Positions 1 to 8,193 of a stretch of DNA of 8,193 nt are shown piece after piece. The translations under genes and the position numbers were made by a program. Within the stretch, counting starts at the first letter, position 1. Each line of letters starts with the position of its first letter. The stretch lies in contig CAMPAJ010000068.1 in the NCBI GenBank assembly GCA_946631805.1, forward strand, positions 1 to 8,193. The letters run 5' to 3'. This stretch comes from an uncultured Eggerthellaceae bacterium (GTDB lineage: Bacteria; Actinomycetota; Coriobacteriia; Coriobacteriales; Eggerthellaceae). A model generated the notes under the pieces. The model was not told the DNA's origin and searched no databases. It saw only the letters and a list, made by a program, of their open reading frames with translations.

Positions 1-23
1 GCGTCCTTGAATCGGTTCTCCAC
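1..23 (-). CDS. Probable start of a minus-strand gene (8 codons only)
   Basis: Read on the minus strand, a GTG at 23-21 opens a frame giving M-E-N-R-F-K-D-A before the window ends. It is preceded at a 7-base distance by GAAAGGGG (38-31), a good purine-rich ribosome binding site, and by an AT-rich stretch that could hold its promoter. Eight residues are far too few to name a family. The call rests only on the placement of start and ribosome binding site and on the compositional change upstream. Confidence 0.4.
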
Positions 24-203: not shown

Positions 204-920
204 CTATGAATTCCTTTGCCCAGAACGAAAAGCTTGCACCTCGCCGGCCGCAGCCTTCCCTGCAACTCTTTCCAATAGTAGATGCATCACGCGCTCGCTG
301 TAGGCGGGGCCGGAACACGAGATGACGCCATCCCATTCCGCAACCGAATCGGCAACCGGATCGCACCCAAGCTCACGCAATCGCCCAACATTATCGTGAC
401 GGCTACTAAATGGATACGTCGTCGCACGCCCTCCTGCAAGTACTCCGGCTTCGGCTACGGGCACCACACCCACGCACATCGTGGCAATCGGGCAACCGCG
501 ATCGCGCATGTGGCGTATTATCCGATACACGCGCTCGTCATACACCTCGCCATATCCCAAATTATGGAACCCGCCGGGAACAACGAGCGCATCATAGCAA
601 CCCGGATCGACGTCGTCGACGAGCACATCGGCCCGAATCACCGTCCCAAAAGCACCGCTCACCTGGCCTTTGAATGCCGCAACATCCACGTCAACCGTCG
701 CCACGCTCGGACGGTACCGCGTCCACCCCAACACATCGAGCGCACAAGCCGCCTCTGCATCGTCAAAGCCCTCCGCAAGCAGCAACAGCACCCTCTTGTT
801 CGGCAAACTATCGGCATCAACGGGCTGGTCCGACGCCCAACCGCTCAGCAACCGCTCGCCCTCAGCCAACCCGACACCTCCCCGCTGCCGCGCCCCGCCC
901 ACATCATCCGCCACGTCCAT
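204..920 (-). CDS. DJ-1/PfpI-family (class I glutamine amidotransferase-like) protein
   Basis: A 238-residue protein with one DJ-1/PfpI domain at about residues 42-220. It contains the first beta strand VLLLLAEGF, an acidic residue Glu56 in GFDDAE at the place of human DJ-1 Glu18, the VVPGG turn (113-117) and a nucleophile elbow ATMCVG with Cys149. The family includes deglycase/chaperone-like proteins, peptidases and regulators, and the sequence does not decide between them. About 40 low-complexity residues precede the domain. The ATG at 920 is chosen because AAGGGGAAGT directly precedes it; a TTG at 962 would add 14 residues but has no comparable site. The gene faces away from the LysR-corrinoid gene, separated by the repeat cluster. 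No functional link to the methyltransferase genes is visible. Confidence 0.85.
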   Translation of the reverse strand: MDVADDVGGARQRGGVGLAEGERLLSGWASDQPVDADSLPNKRVLLLLAEGFDDAEAACALDVLGWTRYRPSVATVDVDVAAFKGQVSGAFGTVIRADVLVDDVDPGCYDALVVPGGFHNLGYGEVYDERVYRIIRHMRDRGCPIATMCVGVVPVAEAGVLAGGRATTYPFSSRHDNVGRLRELGCDPVADSVAEWDGVISCSGPAYSERVMHLLLERVAGKAAAGEVQAFRSGQRNS

Positions 921-1030
921 ACTTCCCCTTTCCCGCAAAACCTTCAACCCATAGTAGCCCAAGTCAAAGCAAAAGCCCCCCGCTAGGTTAAACGGAACCC
1001 CCGTAGGGAAAGCAAAAAAGAGTCAGGGGA

Positions 1031-1364: not shown

Positions 1365-1408
1365 TTGACATCTGCCACAACGCGAAACCAAGCGCATTGC
1401 TGTAGAAT
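1365..1408 (+). promoter_or_regulatory. Weak promoter candidate for the LysR-corrinoid gene
   Basis: A perfect TTGACA lies at 1365-1370 and a -10-like TAGAAT at 1403-1408, both upstream of the ribosome binding site at 1443. The 32-base spacing is far from the usual 16-18, so they are unlikely to act as one standard promoter. The TAGAAT could be the -10 of an activator-dependent promoter. Low confidence. Confidence 0.25.
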
Positions 1409-1442: not shown

Positions 1443-1450
1443 AAGGAGGT
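1443..1450 (+). promoter_or_regulatory. Strong ribosome binding site fixing a GTG start
   Basis: AAGGAGGT is a perfect Shine-Dalgarno match, six bases before the GTG at 1457. It settles the non-ATG start of the LysR-corrinoid fusion. Confidence 0.85.
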
Positions 1451-1456
1451 GAACGC

Positions 1457-3013
1457 GTGGACATTTCGCAGATGCGCATGATGCTCGTTCTGGCAGAATG
1501 CAAGTCAATGACGACGACGGCCAAGAAACTGCACGTCACGCAACCCGCGCTCACCTACCAATTGAAGGTCATCGAAAACGAACTGGGCTTCAAGGTGTTC
1601 AATCGAACACGAACAGGCACGTCGCTTACAGCAGAAGGCGCGTTCCTGCACGAGACGGTCAAGCAGATCGTCTCGGATTACGACGAGACCATCCGCTTGG
1701 CACGGGCCATGGTCAAGGGCACGGCCGCCGGCACCATCCGCGTGGGCGTGAACGACTGCTCGCGCGACACCATCTCGTTCTTCCTGAACGTCGCCCAGTC
1801 GAACGTATCGTTCTCGCTCATTCCCTGCGGGTCGTCCAACCCCATCAAGCTGCTGCGCGAAGGCGTTATAGATCTGTGGTCCACCTCGGACATAGCCATG
1901 GTAAACGCCCCTTCCAACCTGCGCTTCGCCGAGCTCACAACTGCAAGCCAGCTCGTTTTCGTTCCCAAGGACCATCGGCTCGCGCAGCGCACGGCCGTCA
2001 GCATAGAAGACCTTAAGAACGAAACCGTATGGCTCTGGCCGCGCGGAAAAGCCTCGTGCGCTTCCGACGCCATACGCGATAAGCTCGAAAGCATGGGGAC
2101 CGACGTCGCCGACTTCATCCCAGGAGTACCGGCCATTGTTTCGGCGTTCATGGACGAAGGCGTCGTCGTATACGACGAGGGCTACCTACCTCCATCTGCG
2201 CAAGCGGCCGTACAGATCCTGCTCGCCGACGCCGAGGACGACACGCTGGGCCTTGCCTACCTGGCGGCGCAGGAAGAAAAGCTGGCGCCCATTATCGCGA
2301 ACCTGAAAGAGCACATTCCCAACAACCAGGATCGCACTATCAGCTCTTCGGAGCTGGCGGCGGAGCGCATCGTCTCGGTGCTCGACGAAATCAGCTCGAC
2401 CGTGCGCCGCGGCGGCATGAAAGACATCGTGCCGCTCGTGGAATATGGTTTGGAACTGGGCATTTCTGCACACCATTTGCTCAATCGCGGCTTGCTGGCC
2501 GGCATGAACGCAACGAGCAACGCATACCAGCAAGGCGAGATCTACACAACCGAGATGATGGCAGCCGTATCTACGACGAACCTCGCCATGGACGTGCTGC
2601 AACCATACTTTGCCGTCGAGGACGAGCGGCCCATGACGGGAACGGCCGTCATCGGCACCGTGTTGGGCGACCGCCACGATATCGGCAAGAACCTCGTGCG
2701 CATCATGCTGGAAAGCCGCGACATCGAAGTTGCCGACCTGGGCACCCAGGTGACACCCGAGCGTTTCGTCGAGCACGTGCGCAACAACGCCAACTGCAAC
2801 TTGGTGCTCATCTCGGTCAACCACACGGACTTCCTGGACAATGCACGTGCCGTGGTAAAAGCGCTGCAAAAAGCCAGGCTGCGCGAGCAGGTATTCGTCA
2901 TGATAGGCGGAAGCGCCGCCACGCCGGAATTTGCCGACGAAATTGGCGCCGATGCCTTCACGTACAACGCCGAGGATGCCGCCGAAAAGGCGCATGAGCT
3001 CATGAGCCTATAA
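1457..3013 (+). CDS. LysR-type regulator fused to a methyltransferase-type corrinoid-binding module
   Basis: A 518-residue one-frame fusion. Residues 1-60 are a LysR-type winged helix-turn-helix (AAKKLHVTQPALTYQLK-like recognition region 21-37, then LGFKVFNRT and LTAEG). Residues about 90-285 have the two-lobe effector-binding layout (IRVGV start at 94, LLREGVIDL at 132-140). Residues about 298-388 match the helical cap of MtaC/MttC-type corrinoid proteins (LLNRGLLAGM 341-350, YQQGEIYTTEMMAA 357-370). Residues 392-518 are the Rossmann-like B12 domain with D405-x-H407-x-x-G410, where the His is the usual lower cobalt ligand, plus GTxxGDRHDIGKN context and IGG at 483-485. Both halves look complete. 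The GTG start has a perfect ribosome binding site. It converges on the PucR-type gene. Inference: a regulator sensing corrinoid or its methylation state, linked to the nearby methyltransferases. Confidence 0.9.
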   Translation: MDISQMRMMLVLAECKSMTTTAKKLHVTQPALTYQLKVIENELGFKVFNRTRTGTSLTAEGAFLHETVKQIVSDYDETIRLARAMVKGTAAGTIRVGVNDCSRDTISFFLNVAQSNVSFSLIPCGSSNPIKLLREGVIDLWSTSDIAMVNAPSNLRFAELTTASQLVFVPKDHRLAQRTAVSIEDLKNETVWLWPRGKASCASDAIRDKLESMGTDVADFIPGVPAIVSAFMDEGVVVYDEGYLPPSAQAAVQILLADAEDDTLGLAYLAAQEEKLAPIIANLKEHIPNNQDRTISSSELAAERIVSVLDEISSTVRRGGMKDIVPLVEYGLELGISAHHLLNRGLLAGMNATSNAYQQGEIYTTEMMAAVSTTNLAMDVLQPYFAVEDERPMTGTAVIGTVLGDRHDIGKNLVRIMLESRDIEVADLGTQVTPERFVEHVRNNANCNLVLISVNHTDFLDNARAVVKALQKARLREQVFVMIGGSAATPEFADEIGADAFTYNAEDAAEKAHELMSL

Positions 3014-3119: not shown

Positions 3120-4721
3120 TTACATCCCCAACAGCTTCGCCGAAAGCAGCAGATACAGCACCTGGTCGGCATCGCCGAGGTCGATGTCTACGAGGCTTTC
3201 GATCTGAGACATGCGGCGCATAAACGACGTGCGATGGATGAACAGCTCGTTTGCGGCGTGCGTCGTGTTTTGGCTATTGCGAAGGAAGCACACGAGCGTG
3301 CGCGCATACTCGGTTGCATTGTCGCGATCGTGCGCGATGAGCCTGGCAAGCGCCGGATGGCATATCTGGTCAGGAGAAATCCCATCAGAGCAGCGCGCCA
3401 AGAGGTAGTCGAGCGCGTAATCGCTAAAACGGTAATACCAGTAATGCGGATCGCGTACTTGGCCGAGCGCAAGCGCCTGCTCCGCCTCCAGGTAATACCC
3501 GCGCATCGCGCCAAACTGCGCGAACACGTCGCTAATACCCGCCTTGCATGCGTAGTTGCGCAGCATCTCGATGAGCGCATTCACAAACCGCTGCTCCACG
3601 TCTTTGGCCGTCTCGCCCGAAGCAGCCGATTTCGAGAGATTGGCAAACCACACGATTTGCTGGTCGGCGGGAAATGCGCAGCTCGCAGACATCGCGCGCT
3701 CAAACAAGCCGCACAAGTACAACGACACGGTATCCCAATGCACCCCTTCGAAGAAGACCACTTTAGCCACAAGATACTCGTCATCGCGGCTCCAGCCGTA
3801 CGACGCCAATATGGAATCGGCTTCGTCAAGTACCAGCGGAGCGTCTTCGAGCAGAGACTGGCGCACGAGCACATGCAGCGAATCGTTTTGCGACGTTGCC
3901 ACGCCTGCATGGCCCGCATAGCGGGCGTGAAGGTTCTCGAGCCCCGCATGGAACACGTCAACGAGCTGCTCTTCGCCCCGATGCAGGTGCTTCTTTCCTT
4001 CGGGCAGCGCCAGCACGAGCCGAGCAAGGTATTCCCCACCGTCGAACGTGTTCACGCCATAGTACATGCGGTTGCGCGTATCCTCGTAGTAAAAACCACC
4101 TTCGATTTTTGCGGCGTTCAGGTAATCGTCGTCTTCCACCAAATCGACGGCTCGATCGATGGGCATCTGACCCTCGACGTGCGCGTCGTCGGCAGCGTTG
4201 TTCATCGGGTCGGTTTCGCTCCAATAATCGTTGGAGGCGGCCAGGACTATGAGGTTGCGATCGAAATAGGCCAGGGGACACGACAGCATGTCGCGGCTCA
4301 AACCCATGAACTCATCGAGCGTCGTACCCCTGATGAGCGCGTCCTTCAAGGCGGCATCCCATGCATCAAGACGACGCAAGGCCTGGTAAGCGGCCTCGAC
4401 AAGCTCTATCGGCGAGGCGACCTGCTTCCATTGCACAACAGCGAATCCAGCATCTGAGTCAATAACCTTGCCCTTGCTTTTGCCCGCCTTCTTGCTTTTG
4501 TTCTTGCTGCCCTTAGCCTTGCCTTTGCCTCCCTTTGGTTTTTCCTCGGACTGTATGGCAAGTTCAACTGAAGAATCTGCCACATACAGCACGCCTGGCT
4601 CGTACGAACCTGGGCTGTAAACGCTTACGCGCTCAACCTTGCTATCGGGATCGCCAACGAGATTAACTTCGACGCCACTTTGAGCGAGCGCATATTCAAC
4701 CATTGCCGCACGTATATTCAT
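3120..4721 (-). CDS. PucR/CdaR-type transcriptional regulator with a lysine-rich insert
   Basis: A 533-residue cytoplasmic regulator. The C-terminal part, about residues 455-530, is the PucR-type helix-turn-helix: conserved layout of ALARLIAHDRDNATEYARTL, then NTTHAANELFIHRTSFMRRM and the end helices IDLGDADQVLYLLLSAKL. The middle (about 280-425) has the spacing of the CdaR/GGDEF-like region of this family. The N-terminal part is not recognised. Residues 61-85 contain 12 lysines in 25 positions (KGKAKGSKNKSKKAGKSKGK type), an unusual basic insert next to the N-terminal domain. ATG at 4721 follows GGTAGGTAGG. Family members act as activators or repressors of catabolic genes, often for purines, sugar diacids or amino compounds. 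It lies just beyond the UroD-like gene, suggesting control of the methyltransferase genes or of itself; the effector is unknown. Confidence 0.85.
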   Translation of the reverse strand: MNIRAAMVEYALAQSGVEVNLVGDPDSKVERVSVYSPGSYEPGVLYVADSSVELAIQSEEKPKGGKGKAKGSKNKSKKAGKSKGKVIDSDAGFAVVQWKQVASPIELVEAAYQALRRLDAWDAALKDALIRGTTLDEFMGLSRDMLSCPLAYFDRNLIVLAASNDYWSETDPMNNAADDAHVEGQMPIDRAVDLVEDDDYLNAAKIEGGFYYEDTRNRMYYGVNTFDGGEYLARLVLALPEGKKHLHRGEEQLVDVFHAGLENLHARYAGHAGVATSQNDSLHVLVRQSLLEDAPLVLDEADSILASYGWSRDDEYLVAKVVFFEGVHWDTVSLYLCGLFERAMSASCAFPADQQIVWFANLSKSAASGETAKDVEQRFVNALIEMLRNYACKAGISDVFAQFGAMRGYYLEAEQALALGQVRDPHYWYYRFSDYALDYLLARCSDGISPDQICHPALARLIAHDRDNATEYARTLVCFLRNSQNTTHAANELFIHRTSFMRRMSQIESLVDIDLGDADQVLYLLLSAKLLGM

Positions 4722-5046: not shown

Positions 5047-6027
5047 TTATTGCCCGAGACGTGCGGCAGCAAGCTCCTTGGCGTATTGGAAGGCCCCGCC
5101 GAGGATGCGCGGGTCGCGCATGTTACCCAATCGGAAGCCCATGAACCCATAGGAATGGCCGTACTTGCCATATTCGTCGAGGCAGCGATGCACCTCGGTG
5201 GCGATTTCCTCATCGGTAGCATCGTCATGACCGGGGCGGCCCTGCGTATCGTAGCCGCCGAGCACCGAGAGCTTGTCGCCGTATTGTTCGATGATGCGGT
5301 TGATGTCGTTGCTGGGTTGGGCTGACTGCCACACGACCGAGCCCTCTTCGATGATGTCGGGAATGATTTCCTCGCAGCAGCCGCACACGTGAATCTCGGG
5401 CGTGATGCCCAGACCGATGGCTGCATCGTTCATGCGCTTGTGAGCTGGCTTTATGAACTCACGGTAAATCTCGGGCGACATGAACAGCGATTTCTCGGTG
5501 GCTACATCGTCGTAGTGCACATAGGCATCGGGGCGAATCCACTTGGCCACGCGCTCGAGCAACGCCACCTTGTAGTCGGCGATTGCCATGCACAGCGCCT
5601 TCGTAGCCTCGGGTTCGTCGTAAAACGCGCACAGAGCTTCCTCGAACCCAAGCAGATGGCCCAAACGCAGGAATACCGAGTTCCACGTATGGTATTCGAT
5701 AACCTTGTTCTCGCGGTCCGCCAGCGCAAGCTCCTGCTCGGCAAACGCAGCCCAGTCGATGGCGTCAAGGTCGGGGAACTTGACCTTGTCTTCCCAGTCG
5801 CACACATCATCCAGCGGAATGACGTTGGGATCCAGCGCAGGCTGCCCTGCAGCCGAATCCGTCGGGATCCAATTGTTTCCAAAGCTGTCGTATCCACCTG
5901 TTAGCGGGCCGTTTTCCCACCATTCGCGCTGGCTTCCCAATATGGTGAAATCGATGGCGAACGTGGGGATCCACTCGACGGGCTCGTGCTTCTGATAAGC
6001 CAAGTAATTCTCGCGCGGGGTGAGCAT
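5047..6027 (-). CDS. Uroporphyrinogen-decarboxylase-family (MtaA/MtbA-like) methyltransferase
   Basis: A 326-residue protein of the UroD/MtaA fold. Supporting features are the N-terminal TPRENYLA at 3-10, the mid-region YVHYDDVATEKSLFMSPEIYREFIKP (169-194) and LGGYDTQG at 256-263. His213-x-Cys215 at 213-215 is the start of the zinc motif by which relatives activate a thiol or carrier. Here it continues as CGCCEE, and the late Gly-Cys of MtaA/MtbA is replaced by the LGNM region (300-303). In relatives the enzyme moves methyl groups between a corrinoid protein and coenzyme M or tetrahydrofolate; true heme-pathway decarboxylation is unlikely. ATG at 6027 is chosen for GAGGAAAGG seven bases upstream; a start at 6105 lacks such a site. 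It follows the transporter gene on the same strand and probably receives or donates the methyl group handled by the MttB-like enzyme. Confidence 0.8.
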   Translation of the reverse strand: MLTPRENYLAYQKHEPVEWIPTFAIDFTILGSQREWWENGPLTGGYDSFGNNWIPTDSAAGQPALDPNVIPLDDVCDWEDKVKFPDLDAIDWAAFAEQELALADRENKVIEYHTWNSVFLRLGHLLGFEEALCAFYDEPEATKALCMAIADYKVALLERVAKWIRPDAYVHYDDVATEKSLFMSPEIYREFIKPAHKRMNDAAIGLGITPEIHVCGCCEEIIPDIIEEGSVVWQSAQPSNDINRIIEQYGDKLSVLGGYDTQGRPGHDDATDEEIATEVHRCLDEYGKYGHSYGFMGFRLGNMRDPRILGGAFQYAKELAAARLGQ

Positions 6028-6110
6028 GAGTGCACCTTTCCTCGATAATCCAAAGCATAAGCAGCGGCTTTCTTTGCGTTCTTGCATAGAAGTCGCATGT
6101 GGCACTTGAA

Positions 6111-6381: not shown

Positions 6382-7908
6382 TTATTCCGCCAGCTGCTCC
6401 TCGGGCACTTCCCCTTCGCCATCGCTTGCAAGCCCTTTGACGATCGATACCATAGCGGCAATCATGACGAAAATGAAAGGGAATGCAGCAGCTATCGAGA
6501 TGGTCTGCAGCGGCTTTAAGCCACCTGCTATGAGCAGTCCGATTGCCATGACTGTAAGCACGATGCCCCACAGCACCTTTTTGAAGTTCGAAGGATTCAT
6601 GTTGCCTTCGCTCGAAAGCATGCCCAACACGAACGTCCCCGAGTTCGCAGACGTGATGAAGAACGTGCACACCAAAACGAGCATGATGACCGAGATGATA
6701 GCGCCAAGCGGATACTGGTTGAGCACCATGAACAAGCCCGTTTCGGGAGAGGCGGCCACGGACGCAACGGCTTCGGGGCCGAGCGCCCCACCTTGAGCAA
6801 GCGAAAGCCCCATCGACCCGAACACCGAAAACCACATGATAGATGCTACGGCGGGTACGAATACGACGCCCAGAATGAACTCGCGCACGGTACGGCCTTT
6901 CGAAATACGCGCGATGAACACGCCGACGAACGGCGCCCATGCAATCCACCAGGCCCAATAGAATACGCGCCAGCCGAGCACCCACGAGTTGTCACCATAT
7001 GCCGAGATACCCAGGCTGCTTTGGAAAAACGAGCCCACGTACTCGCCCAATCCGCCGGCAAGGTTGTTGAGCGCGTCGATCTTGGGACCCACGATGAAGC
7101 AGACGACAAGAACACCGATGGCAATGTAGAGGTTTGCATCGGAAATAACCTTGATTCCGCGATCGATACCGAGCACGGCCGAACCGATGAAGATTACCGC
7201 TATGACGAGAATGATCGCAATTTGCACGGTAAGGTCAACAGGTACGCCGAACAGGTAGTTAAGTCCAGCATTGATTTGCAGGACCCCCAACCCGAGCGAG
7301 GTGACGACGCCGGCCATGGTGGCGAACAATGCCAACACGTCCACAAGCTTTCCCAGAGGCCCACGAGCCCCCTTCTCACCCAAAATCGGCGTGAGCGACG
7401 AGCTTATGAGCGCTGATTTTCCCTTGCGATACATGAAATAGCCCAAAGCTAATCCGATGATGGCGTAATTGGCCCAGGGGTGTATTCCCCAGTGCATGAA
7501 CGAGGCCGCCATCGCAAACCCAGCCGCCTCTGCCGAATTGGGCTCGATTCCCGCCATAGGGCCCACATAATGCGATATAGGTTCGGCAACGCCCCAAAAC
7601 ACGAGACCAACGCCCATTCCGCAGCCGAATAGCATGGCAAACCACGAAACAGTGGTGTACTCGGGCTTGGAGTCATCGGGCCCGAGTCGGATAGCGCCCC
7701 ATTTGGAAACTGCGATGCAAAGGACGAACACAACGAACGAAAGCATGACCACGAGATACAACCAGCCGAAATCAACGGTCAAGAACCCGAATACGGCGTT
7801 GGAAACCTCGGTGAAACTCTGGTTTTGGGCTATCGCCCACACGGCGATAGCCACACACAACACAAGCGAAACGATGAAAACGGGGTTTTTGAACTCGTTT
7901 TTGTTCAT
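6382..7908 (-). CDS. BCCT-family betaine/carnitine/choline-type transporter
   Basis: A 508-residue inner-membrane protein with about 12 hydrophobic segments and short tails (about 8 residues before the first, about 18 after the last). GMGVG at 97-101 followed by FWGVAEP (104-110) matches the substrate-contacting glycine stretch. GWRVFYWAWW at 312-321 plus Trp324 is the family signature with its aromatic box for the trimethylammonium group (Arg at the usual Thr). ITSANSG at 418-424 lies where BetP has sodium-site Thr/Ser residues. BetP has GMGIG here, and Asp at the last Gly is associated with choline recognition, so a betaine-like substrate is favoured. The short tails argue against BetP-type osmosensing and for nutritional uptake. 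ATG at 7908 has AGGAG eight bases upstream. The neighbouring methyltransferase genes imply that the imported amine is demethylated. Confidence 0.93.
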   Translation of the reverse strand: MNKNEFKNPVFIVSLVLCVAIAVWAIAQNQSFTEVSNAVFGFLTVDFGWLYLVVMLSFVVFVLCIAVSKWGAIRLGPDDSKPEYTTVSWFAMLFGCGMGVGLVFWGVAEPISHYVGPMAGIEPNSAEAAGFAMAASFMHWGIHPWANYAIIGLALGYFMYRKGKSALISSSLTPILGEKGARGPLGKLVDVLALFATMAGVVTSLGLGVLQINAGLNYLFGVPVDLTVQIAIILVIAVIFIGSAVLGIDRGIKVISDANLYIAIGVLVVCFIVGPKIDALNNLAGGLGEYVGSFFQSSLGISAYGDNSWVLGWRVFYWAWWIAWAPFVGVFIARISKGRTVREFILGVVFVPAVASIMWFSVFGSMGLSLAQGGALGPEAVASVAASPETGLFMVLNQYPLGAIISVIMLVLVCTFFITSANSGTFVLGMLSSEGNMNPSNFKKVLWGIVLTVMAIGLLIAGGLKPLQTISIAAAFPFIFVMIAAMVSIVKGLASDGEGEVPEEQLAE

Positions 7909-8023: not shown

Positions 8024-8193
8024 TTAGCGCGTGTACAGCGCGGGGCTCGAACCGATAAGCTCGTTGCAGCGCTTCTCGATGTAAGCGTTGAGCTCGGCTT
8101 CGACGGCCTCGTCCATGTCGGGAGCAACGTACTCCTCAAGCTGCTTGGTCCAACGGTCGTAGCAGACCTTGTCGAGCGACTTGGCGCCAGCGG
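8024..8193 (-). CDS. C-terminal end of an MttB-superfamily (trimethylamine/betaine-type) methyltransferase, partial
   Basis: The last 55 residues of a protein whose start lies beyond the right edge. The frame ends with TAA at 8026-8024 and reads AGAKSLDKVCYDRW, then a helical stretch ending in CNELIGSSPALYTR. The helical end with YDRW and a regular amphipathic tail resembles the C-terminus of MttB-superfamily enzymes, which move a methyl group from trimethylamine, glycine betaine or other quaternary amines to a corrinoid protein. The betaine-type transporter next door supports this. The catalytic barrel, and whether a pyrrolysine (in-frame TAG) codon is present, cannot be seen here. The family assignment is moderately sure; the substrate is unknown. 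Confidence 0.6.
   Translation of the reverse strand, partial: AGAKSLDKVCYDRWTKQLEEYVAPDMDEAVEAELNAYIEKRCNELIGSSPALYTR

Follow-up and report, generated by a model that had tools for sequence, protein, structure and literature searches.

The gene at positions 1457–3013 of contig CAMPAJ010000068.1, from an uncultured Eggerthellaceae bacterium, encodes a LysR-type regulator with a built-in corrinoid module; the whole stretch of DNA analysed, 8,193 nucleotides in length, is termed the window throughout. A full LysR regulator is joined to a full corrinoid module with invariant cobalt ligands, the modules of this family form one clade, and the gene is linked to metF (methylenetetrahydrofolate reductase) and, in many cases, to mttB and betaine-type transporter genes. 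With moderate confidence, we read the protein from its sequence and gene context as a one-component transcription factor that would sense the state of protein-bound corrinoid and control one-carbon metabolism.

Whilst B12-dependent one-component regulators are already known, the methylation reading, should it hold, would add a new sensing principle, and the combination of LysR with a methyl-carrier module would then amount to a gene-encoded device for sensing methyl-corrinoid state, one that could serve directly in biosensors following how gut communities use methylamine or betaine. As far as we know, it is little understood how demethylation of quaternary amines is matched to the folate methyl branch in anaerobes, and with the fusion the question can be put to the test using a single purified protein and a single promoter. 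In the B12-binding regulators known to us, the scaffold is of MerR type and the signal is light or adenosylcobalamin. No description of a LysR- or AraC-corrinoid regulator was found in the literature searched, most subscription journals being outside its coverage, and the view of the first-pass annotation that LysR-corrinoid fusions lack a described precedent stands to that extent. The main text on SignatureFinder, in which 128,000 cobalamin-domain sequences were mined for light sensors, contains neither 'LysR' nor 'AraC', and in PMC3621897, where corrinoids come up many times, the term 'LysR-type' occurs once.

A LysR regulator with a corrinoid module

The features of the fusion gene, all on the plus strand, are as follows.

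1457–3013, plus strand: LysR-corrinoid fusion protein, 518 residues, GTG start (open reading frame, domain matches, relatives)
1443–1451, plus strand: Shine-Dalgarno sequence AAGGAGGTG, read in the sequence
1403–1408, plus strand: TAGAAT, a weak −10-like element picked out by eye and unlisted by the promoter scan; TACAAT or TAGAAT is similarly placed in several relatives
1466–1639, plus strand: LysR helix-turn-helix, residues 4–61 (domain match), the most conserved part
1727–2317, plus strand: LysR effector-binding domain, residues 91–287 (domain and structure matches)
2366–2626, plus strand: helical corrinoid cap, residues 304–390 (domain match)
2627–3010, plus strand: cobalamin-binding Rossmann domain, residues 391–518 (domain and structure matches)
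2669–2686, plus strand: D405-x-H407-x-x-G410 cobalt-ligand motif (93/93 rows)

The first-pass annotation had described one uninterrupted frame in which the DNA-binding and effector parts of a LysR regulator are joined to a corrinoid cap and Rossmann domain, and this is borne out by matches to all four domains and by 93 aligned rows (the window protein and 92 relatives of 42–100% identity). HTH_1 lies at the N-terminus (59.8 bits against a cut-off of 26.6) with the two-lobed LysR_substrate domain C-terminal to it, and the B12-binding_2 cap (30.5 bits, cut-off 23) and B12-binding domain (63.9 bits, cut-off 32.1) are likewise matched; the list of structure matches covers mainly residues 225–518, such that the absence of a family from it is uninformative. 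The first 96 relatives listed in the protein search (P0001–P0096) have at least two of the four domains, P0071, P0092 and P0096 being without the N-terminal helix-turn-helix and P0075 being marked partial; AraC-corrinoid, MetH-like and single-function proteins follow them. An assembly error or split gene is ruled out by the 93 rows in a single frame, drawn from many contigs and sources.

The proposed cobalt-ligand motif is present in every row, its His not being lost on realignment: G404, D405, H407, G410, S453, G484 and G485 are invariant (93/93) and T401 is kept in 92/93. Mean column entropy is 0.48 bits in the helix-turn-helix (residues 1–61); the corrinoid parts, at 1.09 bits for the cap and 1.06 for the Rossmann domain, vary less than the effector domain, at 1.45, a difference in favour of the sensor reading. 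Given the low entropy of the helix-turn-helix and the invariant ligands, it and the cobalt site are the parts best kept by selection. Six effector-domain residues (S102, R103, S142, S144, S200 and R207) are also fixed in 93/93, so that a small-molecule pocket may still work, and its conservation suggests a second, small-molecule input.

The named sources in the protein search are Eggerthellaceae, and the nine genome loci derive from Eggerthellaceae or Coriobacteriaceae metagenome-assembled genomes, several from ruminant gut. Twelve of 138 genomes in the family of the relative G007 contain the fusion (E ≤ 1e-60), the other 126 being without it at that threshold, and there is one copy per genome except in G122, where a second, incomplete copy reaches the end of its stretch. 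With a deep-member profile at E ≤ 1e-30, for which the best 7995 candidates were scored and the counts are thus lower bounds, at least 53 matches were obtained, of which at least 50 are LysR-corrinoid fusions, the remainder being one histidine kinase, one UroD-corrinoid protein and one further corrinoid protein; no LysR-corrinoid fusion of another group was found among the candidates scored.

Linkage to metF, mttB and betaine-type transport

The remaining features of the window all lie on the minus strand.

1–23, minus strand: start of metF, GTG and then ENRFKD, with the remainder outside the window; identical letters to the metF start of locus L007
24–203, minus strand: metF leader/promoter, conserved in linked relatives by alignment, with an AT-rich near-inverted repeat at 49–65
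204–962, minus strand: DJ-1/PfpI protein, between metF and the fusion gene (open reading frame and domain match)
3120–4721, minus strand: PucR-type regulator (HTH_30, GGDEF_2; domain match)
5047–6105, minus strand: UroD/MtaA-like protein, probable methylcorrinoid:tetrahydrofolate methyltransferase (MT2) (domain match; likelier start near 6027)
6382–7908, minus strand: BCCT betaine-type transporter (domain match)
8024–8193, minus strand: MttB-family methyltransferase, C-terminal end, at the right window edge

The MttB-like, UroD-like and betaine-type transport neighbours named by the first-pass annotation are therefore present, as the MttB end, the UroD/MtaA-like gene and the BCCT gene. Linkage was followed through 14 contexts, i.e. 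the window and 13 genomes (G001–G009 and G121–G124), metF being identified by Pfam in L002, L003 and L006 and by BLAST or whole-genome search elsewhere. In nine of these contexts (the window, L002, L006, L007, L008, L009, L098, L099 and L100) metF lies divergently, at most 3 kb upstream of the fusion gene, a linkage that is new here. The two genes are immediate neighbours in L002, L006, L008, L009, L099 and L100, and other genes stand between them in the window (DJ-1), L007 and L098; the intervening HipA-like protein of L098 (genome G122) occupies 7774–9120. After metF in L002 and L009 come fhs, fchA, folD and folE, belonging to the tetrahydrofolate methyl branch. MttB lies within about 5 kb of the fusion in 5/14 contexts (the window, L003, L006, L007 and L099), and BCCT transporters occur in the window, L006 and L007 and, in pieces, in L100. 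Across the 138 genomes the fusion is found in 12, this kind of methylenetetrahydrofolate reductase (E ≤ 1e-80) in 16 and both in 10, a co-occurrence with a Fisher p of 1e-9 when kinship is ignored.

Pyrrolysine was considered for the MttB of G003 and rejected, since by coordinates its single TAG falls just before the open frame at L003 11580–13016; the other MttB rows with a stop are those of G006 and G009 (TAG), G004 (TAA) and G007 (TGA).

The corrinoid module and its possible roles

The corrinoid modules were compared in a tree and residue sample comprising 25 LysR rows (the window and 24 of the 92 relatives), 15 AraC rows (P0097, 13 others of the 120 listed, and L022) and 27 stand-alone carriers (25 of the 71 loci L010–L080, together with L004 and L005), from which P0098, P0100 and two of four MetH rows (P0099 and P0107) were left out on account of long branches or few columns. 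The 25 LysR-fusion modules form one clade (100/100), apart from the carriers, and the AraC fusions are placed elsewhere, among clostridial carriers. Six residues, a set derived in this analysis, are fixed in 27/27 sampled carriers (F357, P365, A371, L455, L456 and T459), and all six are changed in the window protein. Among the 25 sampled fusions F357 is changed in 22 (mostly to Y, with F in 3), P365 in 19 (kept in 6) and A371 in 21 (kept in 4). Over the 93 fusion rows L455 is replaced throughout (by N, S, F, G, Y or H), R, Q or H mostly take the place of L456, and position 459 has L, A, V or F in 74 rows and S in 10. The exception is T457, also carrier-fixed, which is kept in the window protein and in 16/25 sampled fusions; all 15 sampled AraC fusions retain these carrier residues. 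Residue 357 aligns with MetH F708, which we take to be placed over the cobalt, and residue 459 with MetH S810, presumably the Ser of the Asp-His-Ser triad. Judged by sequence, the fusion module has retained its cobalt-binding core and lost several surrounding carrier-invariant residues, and the sampled carrier residues set it apart from ordinary carriers. The 'full MtaC/MttC-like module' of the first-pass annotation accordingly holds for fold and ligands and fails for several carrier-fixed residues; the TIGR02370 score of the fusion (130.9 bits) is below the cut-off of 215.3, as are those of the stand-alone corrinoid proteins of the same group in L004 and L005 (181.6 and 182.7). A separate corrinoid protein of 39–43% identity is present in 8/8 searched genomes with a full-length fusion; none was found in the genome search of G008, where the fusion is cut by a contig end. 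Changed carrier positions and separate carriers are both to be expected of a dedicated sensor, and both therefore count towards one.

By family roles, betaine-type transport, demethylation by MttB, UroD-type transfer to tetrahydrofolate and oxidation through MetF, FolD, FchA and Fhs make up one route. Sensing of the methylation or redox state of the corrinoid would fit the conserved cobalt site as well as the linkage to metF. The LysR part, as a dimer or tetramer, would be positioned in the metF-side promoter region, and the module would hold a cobamide in the base-off/His-on form. During quaternary amine demethylation this cofactor would be present as methyl-Co(III), and the module would otherwise contain Co(II)/Co(I) or be empty; the corrinoid state would alter how the cap packs against the LysR effector lobes and would thereby change DNA binding or activation, the putative outcome being that the tetrahydrofolate methyl branch (metF, fhs, fchA and folD) is turned on and methyl groups are oxidised. 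That activation is by the methylated form is a guess as to direction. An MtgB-MtgA-MtgC set is described in PMC12478193.

Several observations weigh against such a sensor. No metF was found in the DNA at L001, L004, L005 or L096: L001 has a MurT-like gene upstream, and L096 starts 329 bp upstream of the fusion, with the metF of that genome on another contig. In L003, metF and fhs are 6.3 kb downstream, on the other side of the fusion. The two deepest genome loci, L004 and L005, have a stand-alone corrinoid gene nearby and not metF, on the same strand as the fusion in each case and 148 bp upstream in L004 and 2.3 kb upstream in L005, where MFS and LysR genes lie between. Because gene order is inherited among relatives, linkage in 9/14 contexts does not represent nine independent events. 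An MttB match is absent in two of the nine genomes searched (G002 and G008), G001 and G004 have the fusion without such a reductase at E ≤ 1e-80, and six genomes have such a reductase without the fusion, with 72% identity in G120 and roughly 50% in the other five. The altered loop (454–460) and cap could reflect loss of the cofactor, and the invariant LysR pocket could be the sole input.

We consider it rather unlikely that the protein senses corrinoid supply, i.e. that it responds to the holo or apo state, not to methylation, and licenses a corrinoid-dependent pathway when B12 is present. In its favour we count the same conserved ligand core and the fact that cobalamin binding matters in both AerR and CarH. 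No B12 riboswitch was seen in the six Rfam-scanned sources, making another B12 input conceivable; at metF, no Rfam family reached the gathering score in the window, L002, L006, L007, L009 or L099. However, the scanned neighbours are methyl-oxidation, demethylation and other genes, with none for corrinoid uptake or synthesis by Pfam. Changes in the carrier-invariant 455–459 loop and cap residues would also be consistent with a cofactor-free or non-functional module that acts as a docking surface, to which an MttB or MT2 enzyme binds and thereby titrates or frees the regulator; such a surface would not need D405, H407, G410, S453, G484 and G485, yet these are invariant in 93/93, and we hold this explanation to be improbable.

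The first-pass annotation had also raised a methyl carrier that moonlights as a regulator, shuttling methyl groups between MttB and MT2. The MttC-like fold and ligands and the nearby MttB and UroD genes accord with a working carrier, as does the setting of the AraC fusion in L022, one of the set keeping the carrier residues, which sits with UroD and RACo; we nonetheless disfavour it as improbable, F357, P365 and A371 being changed in most of the 25 fusions and L455 in 93/93, and separate carriers being present in the same genomes. A CarH-type light sensor on a LysR scaffold is scarcely credible: the HTH_1 scaffold (with no MerR match) and the cap residues rule out a CarH-like sensor, residue 357 being Y, F, M, I, V or L in 93/93 and never W, and several named sources are from ruminant gut, a dark place.

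Related architectures and remaining features

Like the methyltransferase corrinoid proteins (MttC, MtmC, MtaC and Moorella 1y80), to which structure alignments give 22–42% identity, the fusion has a cap and Rossmann fold with DxHxxG...S...GG; unlike them, its module stands behind a LysR regulator, lies under the TIGR02370 cut-off and has changes in carrier-invariant loop and cap residues. With LysR-type regulators (CbnR, BenM, CcmR and OxyR) it shares the helix-turn-helix, linker helix and two-lobed effector domain, the CbnR match being full-length, and it differs in an extra C-terminal module of about 215 residues. CarH and LitR are MerR-type regulators that use adenosylcobalamin and carry the cap motif W-x9-E-H. 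The fusion resembles them as a one-component regulator with a cobalamin-binding domain, and departs from them in having HTH_1 and no MerR match, W in 0/93 rows at residue 357, and M367-M368 in the window protein at the place of E-H of CarH; by the features tested it is a LysR regulator and not CarH. P2TF reports 35/37 proteobacterial B12-domain regulators as being of MerR type (PMC3532121).

AraC-corrinoid fusions (P0097, L022 and others) likewise combine a regulator and a complete corrinoid module in one chain, but belong to another regulator family, occupy a separate place in the tree and keep the carrier residues. An AraC-type helix-turn-helix with both B12 domains is found in the 120 AraC-fusion matches listed, of 4683 at E ≤ 1e-3 that are not all fusions, and the named examples are from Clostridia, Ruminococcaceae or Lachnospiraceae. 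Since these fusions are of separate origin, the module has been joined to regulators more than once. Tentatively, the LysR fusion may be the first of a class that reads corrinoid methyl-transfer flux through its own copy of a carrier module, whose cobalt would be methylated or demethylated by the pathway enzymes; the same device would have arisen separately on AraC regulators of Clostridia, and perhaps also on a Moorellaceae histidine kinase with a PocR domain.

Complete corrinoid modules fused to AraC regulators were seen in P0097, P0121–P0239 and L022 (3976–5511), the last being followed in an operon-like row on the same strand by UroD, the activase RACo and a UroD-like gene. P0209 (843 residues) combines a UroD domain with AraC and corrinoid domains in a single chain, and P0098, on a very long branch, has the reverse order, its AraC helix-turn-helix being C-terminal to the corrinoid module. 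P0242 is a Moorellaceae histidine kinase with a PocR domain and, at its N-terminus, a corrinoid module that includes DxHxxG; the module is thus coupled to a third kind of signalling output. In a Coriobacteriaceae metagenome-assembled genome, L014 1822–3591 encodes a UroD-type methyltransferase fused to a corrinoid protein, the UroD part being recognised by eye.

Linked loci share a conserved metF leader, which is unrecognisable in L109, where metF is unlinked, and in L111, from a genome without the fusion, kinship being uncontrolled in this comparison. Its repeat at 49–65 fits a pattern built from these same sequences, for which reason the shuffle figure for it is no independent test. A sigma-70-type scan of positions 1–1600 gave a single site, which does not exceed the yield from shuffled sequence and does not lie at the fusion gene. 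The interval that separates the DJ-1 gene from the fusion gene contains a GC-rich, repeated segment (1130–1290), in which terminator-like hairpins occur on the minus strand. No PucR-type gene was found among the scanned neighbours in relatives; that of the window adjoins the fusion gene and has a lysine-rich stretch near its N-terminus. The DJ-1/PfpI frame was passed over by a codon score trained on its neighbours, and the gene may for that reason be a later arrival.
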